Positions 33,279-38,703 of a DNA stretch of 41,541 nucleotides are shown here, piece by piece (within the stretch, counting starts at the first letter, position 1; each line of letters begins with the position of its first letter). A program made the translations under genes and the position numbers. The stretch is from a virus: positions 1 through 41,541 of the IMG/VR virus record IMGVR_UViG_3300022935_000048. One strand, given 5' to 3'. A model generated the notes under the pieces. That model was not told the DNA's origin. It did no database searches and worked only from the letters and a program-made list of their open reading frames with translations.

Positions 33279-33374
33279 AATATTCTCCTTTGTTTTTACA
33301 TTTGCCGTTCTAGGGTCTACGCGGTGGATTTCCGCATAAGTCCTCATTTAAGAGGCACCTATAATTGACATATG

Positions 33375-33426: not shown

Positions 33427-33643
33427 ATAAGCAAAATAGGTAGGACTCGGTTACACCTACAAGCCACGGACCAAATACCATTTCATCTCCGCAGCAACCT
33501 GCTTCCGCTCGGTAGAGCGATGTGACACTGCCTGTTTCCAGTACAACGCCTGGGTACCACCCCTAAGCAGTCAAGTTCGACGCTCTGGTAAACGCCTCTT
33601 CCTTGCACTATAAACATTGACTAGCTAAGTCTTTGTTGCTTAT
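33427..33643 (-). ncRNA. Novel structured phage RNA candidate, ~217 nt
   Basis: This segment is visibly richer in G+C than its surroundings and has no gene with a ribosome site. Its ends pair perfectly over 8 bp: ATAAGCAA (33636-33643) with TTGCTTAT (33427-33434). Nested inside are AGAGCG/CGCTCT (33581-33586 with 33514-33519), then ACTGCT/GGCAGT (33566-33571 with 33527-33532), a GTAGG/CCTAC hairpin (33456-33460 with 33440-33444), and a short GCAG/CTGC hairpin at 33491-33502. A sigma70-type promoter predicts a start at about 33643, exactly the first base of the closing helix, and a terminator follows at 33422. It does not match tRNA, tmRNA, RNase P or glutamine-riboswitch signatures that I know. 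A regulatory, 6S-like or other trans-acting RNA is possible; function unknown. Confidence 0.65.
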
Positions 33644-33691: not shown

Positions 33692-33720
33692 AAAATATAA
33701 AAAACCCGCCGAAGCGGGTT
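33692..33720 (-). terminator. Intrinsic terminator after pqqA
   Basis: A 7-bp stem, AACCCGC/GCGGGTT, is capped by a UUCG tetraloop (33703-33709 with 33714-33720). It is followed on the minus strand by TTTTTTATATTTT. It is a very stable, strong terminator that ends the pqqA transcript. Confidence 0.9.
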
Positions 33721-33829
33721 ATTCACAGTCTTGTGTTTCTAAAAGTCTGTGCATGTAATCTACTTGTTCATTACATACATTGTTACTTCGAAACCAAAAC
33801 GCATTTCTGTGTATGACGGTTTTGTCCAC
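33719..33829 (-). CDS. Alternative 36-aa frame overlapping pqqA (uncertain)
   Basis: A GTG two bases inside the pqqA start codon opens a frame of 36 residues that reads through the whole pqqA gene in another phase. It ends in a TAA on the base of the terminator stem. Its C-terminal part (NVCNEQVDYMHRLLETQDCE) looks protein-like, and an internal ATG could start an 11-residue version. The same AGGAG site could serve it. It may be chance, because the pqqA frame is strongly conserved and constrains the sequence. I list it because the 40 nt between the pqqA stop and the terminator are otherwise unexplained. Confidence 0.2.
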   Translation of the reverse strand: MDKTVIHRNAFWFRSNNVCNEQVDYMHRLLETQDCE

Positions 33830-33831
33830 AT
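33760..33831 (-). CDS. pqqA: PqqA-like coenzyme PQQ precursor peptide
   Basis: A 23-codon gene. It begins MWTKPSYTEMR and continues GFEVTMYVMNK, matching the PqqA family along its whole length (bacterial examples run W-x-K-P-A-Y/F-T-D-L-R-I-G-F-E-V-T-M-Y). PqqA supplies the glutamate and tyrosine that PqqE crosslinks, bound by PqqD, to become pyrroloquinoline quinone. Those residues are Glu15 and Tyr19 here, at the family spacing E-x-x-x-Y. A perfect AGGAG stands 7 nt before the ATG. The gene lies alone between two terminators behind the capsid gene, and pqqB-E are not in the window. If functional, host PqqBCDEF would have to mature it, so it may act as an auxiliary gene raising host PQQ for quinoprotein dehydrogenases. 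A decoy or signalling peptide is an alternative. Confidence 0.85.
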   Translation of the reverse strand: MWTKPSYTEMRFGFEVTMYVMNK

Positions 33832-33838
33832 ATGTTTT

Positions 33839-33843
33839 CTCCT
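33839..33843 (-). promoter_or_regulatory. Shine-Dalgarno AGGAG for pqqA
   Basis: AGGAG on the minus strand, 7 nt from the ATG at 33831. It confirms that this very short frame is meant to be translated. Confidence 0.8.
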
Positions 33844-33868
33844 AGTTAGTTAATAAAAACTACTCTAT

Positions 33869-33876
33869 TATTTAAA
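33869..33876 (-). promoter_or_regulatory. Possible late promoter variant for pqqA
   Basis: The minus strand reads TTTAAATA, one base from both NATAAATA and CTAAATA, 38 nt before the pqqA start and after the capsid terminator. Spacing fits the other late promoters, but the match is imperfect. Read-through from gp23 is the alternative source of transcript. Confidence 0.35.
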
Positions 33877-33923
33877 CACATTTTTTAATAAAAGTCATAC
33901 GTAAAATCATTAAATTTTAGTCA

Positions 33924-33952
33924 TAAAAAAAGGGCGACTTGCGCCGCCCTTT
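33924..33952 (-). terminator. Intrinsic terminator after the major capsid gene
   Basis: An 8-bp stem, AAAGGGCG/CGCCCTTT (33945-33952 with 33929-33936), with a T-tract of seven on the minus strand, lies about 22 nt after the gp23 stop. It closes the head-gene transcript. Confidence 0.9.
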
Positions 33953-33973: not shown

Positions 33974-35146
33974 TTAGCTGAAAGAAAGGTTAGCTGAATT
34001 AACTTCAACGCTTTCTAAGTAGTCAGCTGCGTTACCTAGAGATGATGCTGTGTTGTTTAGCTCAACATATCCGTAACGTGTCATGAAGCTCACGACTGGT
34101 TCGAATGTTGTTGGATCTAGTACAACACCACTGCTCATTAATGGAATGTATGGGCAGTAGAATGCAGCAGCATCAGATTCGCTAGAACCTTTGTAACCAA
34201 CTAGCACATCGTCATCAGCAGCATATGTGTTAACATATACTTTCATTGCGTTGTTTAGAGTACCAACCATCTTAGTGTTAGTTGGTGCTTCGAAAGAACC
34301 TTCAGTAGTTCTTGCAAACGCAGAAGTAGTTGCTGACTGTAGAACAGTTAGCATTGCTGGTGAAACAACAGCCCAGTTACCTGCGCCACGGCGTGTACGC
34401 TGTGCGATTCTGTTTGCAGCTCTGTTAATTAGAACAGCTAGTGCAGCATGTTCGTCACCAACGAAAGTTGCAGTACCGCTAACAGCAGCCTGGTTGTAGG
34501 TATCTGTACCTGTACCTGCTAGTGATTTAAGAGATGATAGTACCTCTTGATCGATTTCAGCAGTAATTTCTTGTGCTAAAGCAGCCATAATTTCTGCTTC
34601 AACGTCGATGCCATGCTGTGACTGAGCGTCTTGAGCAGACTCAAAAGTCCATCTTGCGCTTAGTTTACGAGTTTTGGCTTCAACAGTTTGCTTCAAGATT
34701 TGGATACTTAGTCTGTTTCCAGCAGTACCTTCTTTAGAAGCAGTAGCGTCTGCTTTACCGTTTGCGTTACCTGAGTAACCTTCAGCAATTTTGAATGGGC
34801 TTAGTGCCTCTTCGCCTGCTGTAGTTGATCCACCTGCTGTGCCTGTAAACGCATCTGCGTAACGAACACGTAGAGTGTGAATTTGACCAACTGGTCCAGT
34901 CATTGGCTGAACACCAACAATCTCGTTTGCAATAACTGTTGGCATTACACGTCTGATAACTGGTAAAATAACTCTGTTTAGAGTTGCAACATTACCGGCA
35001 GAAGTAGCTCCAGCTGTAGCACTTTCAGACAAATACTTGCGAGTATTTTCTAAAGTTGTTTCCATCACAGATTTTTTGTTACCTGTTAGGCCTTCAACTA
35101 GGGCACTTTTGGTCTCCTGCCAGCGACTTTCTAGTAGTTCTGACAT
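33974..35146 (-). CDS. gp23: Major capsid protein gp23
   Basis: A 390-residue major head protein of the T4 gp23 family, which forms the hexamers of the shell. Typical blocks are NVATLNRVILPVIRRVMP with IVGVQPMTGPVGQIHTLRVRY (about 52-95), ARWTFESAQDAQSQHGIDVE (about 160-180), EITAEIDQEVLSSL, and the C-terminal YCPYIPLMSSGVVLDPTTFEP and TRYGY. It is clearly shorter than T4 gp23 (521 aa). The N-terminal part before the core is brief; a gp21-type site (LVE before Gly19) may mark a propeptide of only about 18 residues. It lies 16 nt after gp22 with an AAGGAG site, and a strong terminator follows. Its order after gp21 and gp22 is that of T4. Confidence 0.95.
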   Translation of the reverse strand: MSELLESRWQETKSALVEGLTGNKKSVMETTLENTRKYLSESATAGATSAGNVATLNRVILPVIRRVMPTVIANEIVGVQPMTGPVGQIHTLRVRYADAFTGTAGGSTTAGEEALSPFKIAEGYSGNANGKADATASKEGTAGNRLSIQILKQTVEAKTRKLSARWTFESAQDAQSQHGIDVEAEIMAALAQEITAEIDQEVLSSLKSLAGTGTDTYNQAAVSGTATFVGDEHAALAVLINRAANRIAQRTRRGAGNWAVVSPAMLTVLQSATTSAFARTTEGSFEAPTNTKMVGTLNNAMKVYVNTYAADDDVLVGYKGSSESDAAAFYCPYIPLMSSGVVLDPTTFEPVVSFMTRYGYVELNNTASSLGNAADYLESVEVNSANLSFS

Positions 35147-35162
35147 TTTATTCTCCTTAAAA

Positions 35163-36263
35163 TTATATTCCAGCTAGACGCTTAAATTCAACCAAGTTGT
35201 CCTTTGCGTCTGCTTGTCTACTAACGTTAGTTTGTGAAACTTGTTCACGATTGCCTGTGATTTCTTTGCCTTCTGTGATAGTTGCCTTCTTGGCTGGAGT
35301 GTTACCGTCAATTACTGCCGGTAGGTACTTGTCAAACGCTGAACGTAGTTTAGCTGTTTGAACAGATTCCAGTAAATCCATCATGATTTCTTTCTGATCC
35401 TTACTTAAAGGTCCAGTTAGTTCATTTAAAACATCTTTGCGCTCTGCTGCTTCAACTAAACGCTTCTTCTCAGTTGCCTGATCTTCTGCTAGTTGCTTCG
35501 CTTTTGCTGCAAATGCTTTTGCTTCTGCTAATTGAGCATCTTTTGTTGAGATAACTTTCATTAGCTTGGCTGCTTCTGACTTCTCATTTAAGTAAGAGCC
35601 AGCGTATTCAGAAGCAAATGCTTCGAATAGTTTGCGACCGAAGTCATTTCTACGTGCTTCTTCAATATCTTCTTTAAGTGCAGAAATCTCTTTATTAAGA
35701 GTTTTTCCAACTGTATCAGATACTGCTTTAGCACTTCTTTCGATAAAGGTTTTCTTAACCTTCGCGAAGTGTTCCTTAGCTTCACGTACTAGACGTACTT
35801 TTGTTTCAGCTAAGTCTTTTTTGTCTTCATGGAACTCTGCAATTTCTTTTGCAAGTGCTTCAACAACAAATTCTTCAAGTTTTCCGAAGTTTTCTGCCAT
35901 TGCTTTTTGATCTTCATGTAGCTCGTTAACTTCTTTAGTTAACTGCTCCATAACAAAACCTTTTAGTAAGTTTGCGTCTTCGCGCATTTTTACTGCATAC
36001 TTTGCACGGGCTTCGGCTAGTTGCTTACGATCATTAGCAAATTCAGCAATTTCGTCTGCTAGACGCTCAGATACAAGCGCATCAATGGCTTCAACCATTG
36101 TTGACTTGTCATGCTCGTATTTCTGAGCAAACTCTTCACGTAATTCAGCAGTTACTTGTTGGCGATTCTCTTTGATCTTCGCGTCCCAAGCTTCTTGAAT
36201 TTCGTTGCGCACTTCTTCTGAAACTACATCGTTTTCAAAAAGTGTTTTTAGTGCATCCAACAT
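35163..36263 (-). CDS. gp22: Prohead scaffold protein gp22
   Basis: A 366-residue, highly charged, almost wholly helical protein, longer than T4 gp22 (269 aa). It forms the inner core around which gp23 assembles and is then degraded by gp21. Residues about 60-215 contain four related coiled-coil units (LADEIAEFANDRKQLAE, LTKEVNELHEDQKAMAE, LAKEIAEFHEDKKDLAE, LNKEISALKEDIEEAR), about 35-55 residues apart. The end is less charged: LTGPLSKDQKEIMMDLLES then a C-terminal FKRLAGI. An AAGGAG site precedes the ATG. It sits between the protease gene and the capsid gene, as in T4. Confidence 0.93.
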   Translation of the reverse strand: MLDALKTLFENDVVSEEVRNEIQEAWDAKIKENRQQVTAELREEFAQKYEHDKSTMVEAIDALVSERLADEIAEFANDRKQLAEARAKYAVKMREDANLLKGFVMEQLTKEVNELHEDQKAMAENFGKLEEFVVEALAKEIAEFHEDKKDLAETKVRLVREAKEHFAKVKKTFIERSAKAVSDTVGKTLNKEISALKEDIEEARRNDFGRKLFEAFASEYAGSYLNEKSEAAKLMKVISTKDAQLAEAKAFAAKAKQLAEDQATEKKRLVEAAERKDVLNELTGPLSKDQKEIMMDLLESVQTAKLRSAFDKYLPAVIDGNTPAKKATITEGKEITGNREQVSQTNVSRQADAKDNLVEFKRLAGI

Positions 36264-37977: not shown

Positions 37978-38703
37978 CTACCTTAAATTGAAGATTTCTT
38001 TGAAATCTGCAACTAAGATATTGTTTAAGTTGTCTAATTTATTTAGTTCTGGAGGCAAATAATTATCTGGCTGTATTACTCTTACAAACTCAATGTGTGG
38101 ATTTTCTTTAATTACTGAAACAGTTTGCCTAAGCCAATTACCAAAAAAAGTAGCACTATCAGACTCTTTTTTGTAATTCATAGTGTTTGCATATATGTTG
38201 TTTAAGGTTTTACCTTCGTTTAACCCCTTATAATCAAATCCTAATATGTATATCCGTTGATATCCGTGTTGTGCTGCAAGCCATAGTGCAGTAGGACCAC
38301 TACTCCATCCTTTTCCAGGATTAAAAAAATTTAAGTTTCTAATACCATCAAAAGATCTATTAGGATTAGTCCAAACTGTATTCTTATGTTGATATCCAGA
38401 TCTATTAATTTCTAAAATCATTTTTACATCAACTGCTACTAGATAATCAGGAGTAAATGTTCTATATACAGCATTACATGCATATATTTTGCCGCACATT
38501 GATAATTGAGGTAAGTCAATAGACTGTCTACTTGTGCCATTACCTAACACAAAGCCTACTTTTCCTTTATTTGATCTTTTTAATAGTTCGTTTAAGGATA
38601 CAGTATGTTCTTCAATAAGACGTTCACGCTTAGTTTTACGTCTAGCGTCTCTTACTTTTTTCCATTGTTCTTTGGTGTATCCGGACTTCTCTAATTTTGG
38701 CAC
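37978..38703 (-). CDS. DUF115/GT-like Rossmann-fold protein, 241 aa
   Basis: A 241-residue soluble protein. A basic helical N-terminus (about 1-45, RDARRKTKRERL) is followed by a nucleotide-binding-like GKVGFVLGNGTSRQSIDL (48-64), IYACNAVYRTFTPDYLVAVD (73-92) and SSGPTALWLAAQHGYQRIYILGFDY (134-158). The pattern G-N-G-x-S-R...D-L, then P-D-x-x-x-x-x-D, resembles DUF115/MptE-like and sialyltransferase-like Rossmann proteins. This suggests sugar or nucleotide-sugar chemistry, perhaps capsid modification, but the active-site residues cannot be proven. It starts with GTG (38701-38703), overlapping the upstream TAG by one base. It stands between the portal and core genes, where T4 has none of this type. 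A basic tail may bind DNA or another protein. Confidence 0.6.
   Translation of the reverse strand: MPKLEKSGYTKEQWKKVRDARRKTKRERLIEEHTVSLNELLKRSNKGKVGFVLGNGTSRQSIDLPQLSMCGKIYACNAVYRTFTPDYLVAVDVKMILEINRSGYQHKNTVWTNPNRSFDGIRNLNFFNPGKGWSSGPTALWLAAQHGYQRIYILGFDYKGLNEGKTLNNIYANTMNYKKESDSATFFGNWLRQTVSVIKENPHIEFVRVIQPDNYLPPELNKLDNLNNILVADFKEIFNLR

Follow-up and report, generated by a model that had tools for sequence, protein, structure and literature searches.

Why should a phage carry a lone gene for PqqA, the peptide precursor of the cofactor PQQ, directly beside the gene for its major capsid protein? The question is raised by IMG/VR record IMGVR_UViG_3300022935_000048, of which the whole stretch of 41,541 nucleotides (the window) was analysed. 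A first-pass annotation, made from the letters alone, had pointed to a 23-codon pqqA and offered two roles for it, namely supply of the substrate for host PQQ synthesis or hijacking of the host proteins PqqD and PqqE. Our analysis indicates that the gene is probably an auxiliary metabolic gene of a large T4-like phage which supplies precursor from its own host-readable unit and so feeds PQQ synthesis in the host.

A full-length PqqA gene beside the capsid gene

The encoded peptide (MWTKPSYTEMRFGFEVTMYVMNK) matches both PqqA profiles end to end, with 46 bits to Pfam PF08042 (cut-off 21.1; model positions 1-19 of 19) and 47 bits to TIGR02107 of NCBIfam (cut-off 20; model positions 1-21 of 21). 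No match to the peptide was found in PHROGs. The gene occupies the interval first assigned to it but lies on the minus strand, where it is read from 33831 to 33760 and ends in TAG; the plus-strand frame is meaningless. Translation gave W2, P5, R11, G13, F14, E15 and Y19 just as had been claimed, with Glu15 and Tyr19 at the E-x-x-x-Y spacing. The Glu and Tyr of this motif are the pair that PqqE joins in PqqA. The phage product is therefore like the known RiPP precursor of PQQ in its full-length match, its leader, its Glu-x-x-x-Tyr pair and its 23 residues, and differs from it in that the gene stands alone, with no adjoining pqqBCDE. The ribosome site (GGAG, 7 nt before the ATG) and the position between two terminators, its own and that of the capsid gene, were likewise borne out by sequence and fold (Table 1). 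A terminator-like hairpin within 90 bp after pqqA was found for 58 of 95 viral genes, compared with 8% of random 90-mers.

Table 1 Features of the pqqA locus in the window.
Feature	Position	Strand	Basis
manA-type structured RNA, between pqqA and the next gene; a neighbour, outside the pqqA unit	33430..33630	-	Rfam RF01745, 49.9 bits, E 9.4e-12, under the gathering score of 55.2
Intrinsic terminator 3' of pqqA, CCCGCTTCGGCGGG + T-run	33697..33719 (about)	-	sequence + fold
pqqA, 23 codons + stop, encoding MWTKPSYTEMRFGFEVTMYVMNK	33760..33831	-	translation; PF08042 + TIGR02107
Shine-Dalgarno AGGAG, 7 nt 5' of the ATG	33839..33843	-	sequence
-10-like box TTTAAATAATAG, about 38 bp from the operator start	33865..33876	-	sequence; relatives; spacing statistics
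Operator-like element TTAATGATTTTACGTATG, common to host pqqA promoters	33896..33913	-	de novo motif; matrix scans
Major capsid gene terminator, upstream of the pqqA promoter	33931..33951 (about)	-	sequence + fold
Major capsid protein gene, T4 gp23-type, upstream neighbour of pqqA	33974..35146	-	phrog_138, 340.9 bits

Viral contigs were then searched with a degenerate DNA pattern, which recovered at least 118 viral PqqA genes (IMG/VR contigs were taken as filed). The pattern fixes E9, M10, R11, G13, E15, V16, T17 and Y19, so that conservation at these positions is in part a product of the search. In the 95 non-redundant genes, pN/pS (pooled pairwise, without a tree) was 0.16 overall and 0.26 when recomputed without the pattern-fixed positions, where pS was 0.56 and pN 0.15. 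W2 and P5, which the pattern leaves free, are present in all 95 genes, as is F14, a position open to F, L, I, M or V in the pattern. E9-M10-R11, G13, E15-V-T and Y19 are also invariant, partly because the pattern fixes them. The viral pqqA frame is thus kept by purifying selection. The first-pass annotation had staked its reading on relatives keeping the frame and the E15/Y19 pair, and they do: both residues occur in all 95 genes compared, both being required by the search pattern. The window frame is not a chance one, since the same frame recurs with synonymous divergence in more than 100 other viral contigs, and the window peptide is confirmed as full-length PqqA encoded by a real gene.

The genes near pqqA are T4-type head genes (capsid, protease and portal). 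The capsid shares 66-72% identity with its counterparts in phages of 285-470 kb that infect Vibrio, Sinorhizobium, Pseudomonas and enterobacteria; these 41.5 kb are therefore probably a piece of a large T4-like phage genome. With head genes as neighbours, and with copies in isolated phages as well, pqqA is here a host-type gene in a true phage genome, as is expected of an auxiliary metabolic gene. Only four of the 65 capsid relatives with sequence beyond the capsid gene carry pqqA at this locus, all within 300 bp of the capsid gene and in either orientation, while two more large relatives hold it at another place. The gene is therefore patchy cargo and is not essential to this phage group.

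An operator-like element shared with host promoters

A recurring TTAATGATTWT element was visible on reading the sequences upstream of pqqA. De novo motif searches of the viral and of the host upstream regions, each set taken by itself and trimmed of the ribosome-site end, recovered closely similar elements: the 18-bp viral motif TTaATGATTTTcctTAt in 89 of 95 regions (LL 558, against 64-71 for dinucleotide shuffles) and the host motif nTcATGAatTTcaTTAG in all 100 (LL 766, against 81-109). When viral contigs were scanned with the host-only matrix, 38 of the 42 matches of at least 15 bits fell within the 2.35% of bases directly upstream of pqqA. The viral matrix, whose training set of 95 includes the window, found its best site in the whole window at 33913-33896 (22.0 bits; the next site has 12.1). 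With the host-only matrix the same site scores 13.1 bits and ranks second, after a 13.7-bit site at 5630-5613, and the sites of some close relatives reach only 2.5-9 bits; the phage form of the site has therefore drifted. Over 1.7 Mb of strand scanned in capsid relatives and reference loci, some of which also belong to the training set, each of the five best viral-matrix matches lies upstream of pqqA. Among the isolated phages, the element lies upstream of pqqA in P19250A, MEP301, MEP402 and Melnitz, and the Venkman site is weak.

The distance from the element to the -10 box is sharply defined. Of 90 host promoters, 61 have it at 61 bp, and of 79 viral promoters, 30 have it at 38 bp; the window, at about 38 bp, has the commonest viral and not the commonest host spacing. 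At the same -10-like place, GTTTAAATAATA occurs in the other pqqA loci of large T4-like relatives (L143, L163/L164, L181 and L333). The site in phage promoters is hence about two helical turns nearer the -10 box than in most host pqqA promoters. An operator of this kind is expected to match the host pqqA upstream motif and to stand at a set distance from a -10 box, and both were found here. The orphan pqqA genes of Methylophilaceae (PMC4109929) likewise lie away from pqqBCDE under a closely similar element, but with the usual 61 bp in place of the 38 bp most often seen in phages. By eye, a spacing of about 39 bp also occurs at a host MoxJ-like gene in two host sequences (L368 and L369). In the large relatives L333 and L334, a terminator-like hairpin with a T-run separates the -10 box from the pqqA start, in the manner of an attenuator.

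Two other identities for the element were rejected. A general phage promoter should recur, and no repeat of comparable score was found in relatives or in the rest of the window. That the element belongs to proteobacterial pqqA genes in general is contradicted by a class-level draw of 25 pqqA loci, 23 of which score no more than 4 bits with the host matrix; of the two loci above 16 bits, one is from Methylophilus methylotrophus and the other from a genome with nine pqqA copies.

Eight host genomes contain 18 matches to a degenerate form of the site, compared with three for a reversed control, and 12 of the 18 lie, by position, upstream of pqqA copies. The site also precedes pqqB in M. methylotrophus (TIGR02108, 299 bits), a dehydrogenase-like operon made up of a cytochrome c gene and a glucose/sorbosone-dehydrogenase-like gene (below cut-off) and, in Methylotenera mobilis 13, a TonB receptor gene. 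The first 250 residues of this receptor match PqqU best, at 225 bits, the model cut-off of 1200 applying to the full protein. In two host genomes a looser search placed the site before a MoxJ-like gene (family TIGR03871), and the one gene tested was above cut-off. The element would thus mark a putative host PQQ regulon, apparently undescribed in the open-access literature. With its candidate members exposed (pqqA copies, pqqB, the PqqU-like receptor and the MoxJ-like gene), the regulator can now be sought. The upstream element is the new part of the finding; phage pqqA itself was known before.

Spread among phages of methylotrophs

A tblastn search of 50,697 phage records found pqqA in nine isolated phages of Methylophilales (Venkman, P19250A, MEP301, MEP401, MEP402 and four Melnitz strains) and in one environmental phage genome. 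The hosts of the isolates are all Methylophilales and, according to the records and papers, the phages span several unrelated groups: Venkman/P19250A, MEP301, Zobellviridae and the T4-like Melnitz. They hold the same gene as the window, and in the isolate records examined its site is unannotated or lies beneath a different, hypothetical ORF. It was overlooked because it is so short. PqqA is not named in the papers on Melnitz, MEP401 and Venkman; the first mentions PQQ once, as a component of the growth medium, and the other two make no mention of PQQ. Two tblastn matches to Acinetobacter 'phages' were set aside as probable bacterial DNA. One record, CAKLQF020000010.1 (Acinetobacter phage MD-2021a), holds a pqqBCDE region and pqqA amid chromosome-like genes and is probably bacterial. 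Host contamination as a general source of viral pqqA is argued against by the isolated phages and by the differing promoter spacing.

The rarity implied by the first-pass annotation did not hold. With at least 118 viral contigs and nine isolates carrying it, pqqA is a common gene among Methylophilaceae phages, and its place in the genome varies. One published case in the open-access literature already made phage PqqA known from a methylotroph virus: the Lake Baikal virus population VP_266, a predicted methylotroph virus whose PqqA was read as an auxiliary metabolic gene (PMC7678222, 2020). VP_266 differs from the window, where the gene is alone, in also encoding methanol dehydrogenase, and, as far as the accessible part of that report goes, the operator is not mentioned in it. 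A later study put viral pqqA among phosphorus-cycling genes (PMC13188868, 2026).

PqqE over cut-off was found in none of 50 pqqA-bearing viral contigs, and a PQQ alcohol dehydrogenase in only one of the 50 searched. That contig (G401, 72 kb) encodes the PQQ-dependent alcohol dehydrogenase at 34049-35731 (TIGR03075, 608 bits over two stretches), a combination with pqqA like that of the Baikal methylotroph viruses. In eight likely host genomes we found 1-12 pqqA genes per genome, and seven of the eight have PqqE over cut-off, which bears out the expectation that likely hosts carry the enzyme; the eighth is a 0.9 Mb OM43 genome that is perhaps incomplete. Since PqqE is found in these hosts and in none of the 50 viral records, the enzymes acting on the phage peptide would have to come from the host.

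The host assignment draws on the peptide as well as the operator. The commonest PqqA peptide is the same in the viral and host sets (MWTTPAATEMRFGFEVTMYVMNK), and many of the phage peptides match Methylophilaceae PqqA at every residue. In a scan with one genome per species, EMRFGFEVTMYxMNK was found, among the matches listed, in Methylophilaceae or in bins classified only broadly, for example as Nitrosomonadales, Betaproteobacteria or Pseudomonadota. From just these two features, peptide and operator, the window phage most likely infects methylotrophs of the Methylophilaceae. Together, the two also provide a practical marker of Methylophilaceae phages in metagenomes.

Role of the phage peptide

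Of the two roles first proposed, substrate supply is the better reading, because the hosts have many pqqA beside few pqqBCDE, no PqqE over cut-off was found in 50 phage contigs and the operator is of the type of the host PQQ regulon; hijacking found no support. Published genomes agree on the host side, with 3-12 pqqA copies in Methylophilaceae and essentially single pqqBCDE (PMC4109929). Under precursor supply, the 23-mer would be transcribed during infection from its own small unit of operator, -10 box, pqqA and terminator. Given the likeness of the operator to the host site, host RNA polymerase and the host PQQ regulator would read this unit. Host PqqD would then bind the peptide, host PqqE would cross-link Glu15 and Tyr19, and PqqB and PqqC of the host would complete PQQ, so that PQQ-dependent methanol oxidation would be kept up in the infected cell. 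We also lean, with less confidence, towards a portable unit that is the same in unrelated phages of one bacterial family, joining a RiPP cofactor precursor to an operator whose host PQQ regulon is apparently undescribed, and switched on by the host's regulator. This suggests that phages of methylotrophs boost precursor peptide supply and not an enzyme, and that several phage lineages came to the same solution or have it in common.

PqqA binds PqqD and PqqE, and surplus peptide could compete for them, so that a phage copy might occupy these proteins and slow or redirect host PQQ synthesis. Loss of E15 or Y19 would be expected in such a peptide, whereas the phage peptides retain the leader and both cross-linked residues, in a 95-gene set that was chosen with E15/Y19 fixed and would miss variants lacking them; many are moreover identical to host PqqA, and we regard the decoy as unlikely. 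The same low probability attaches to pqqA as a neutral passenger, gained by recombination and without function for the phage. Its patchy presence beside the capsid gene (four of 65 relatives) fits such an origin, but the purifying selection, the conserved promoter unit and the occurrence in unrelated isolate lineages on one host group speak for a function. That the peptide is incidental, the unit titrating the host regulator or acting as a small RNA, is very unlikely in view of the protein-level selection at pattern-free positions, even though no shared feature is more specific than the operator and the unit is short, monocistronic and closed by a terminator. It is conceivable, and highly improbable, that extra PQQ holds the outer-membrane receptor PqqU closed and shuts out other phages. 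PQQ does block a PqqU-dependent phage in E. coli (PMC12124388), and the PqqU-like receptor gene of M. mobilis 13 lies under the same operator, but a shared operator is expected anyway within a PQQ regulon.

Other elements of the head-gene region

Neither tRNA nor tmRNA was found within the window, and an Rfam scan of the window at the gathering threshold gave no matches. The manA-type RNA of Table 1 was found in the relatives L130 and L163 too. A freshwater-2 RNA (RF02980) at 33283-33356 on the minus strand (43.9 bits; gathering score 49.9) precedes the gene at 33283-32892. In the relatives L130, L134, L135 and L162 it scores 68-75 bits, well above the gathering score, which ties this RNA to large T4-like phages. 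Glutamine riboswitch aptamers (RF01739) lie directly 3' of the capsid gene in L143 (10213-10260, 50 bits) and L130 (7738-7784, 43 bits). The gap that follows the capsid gene appears to be a site where RNA elements and cargo are exchanged. Among the head genes, the frame at 37978-38703 (minus strand) has a weak match (28.7 bits) to phrog_4603, a phage alpha-2,3-sialyltransferase family, and matches phrog_30607, a family of unknown function, more strongly.
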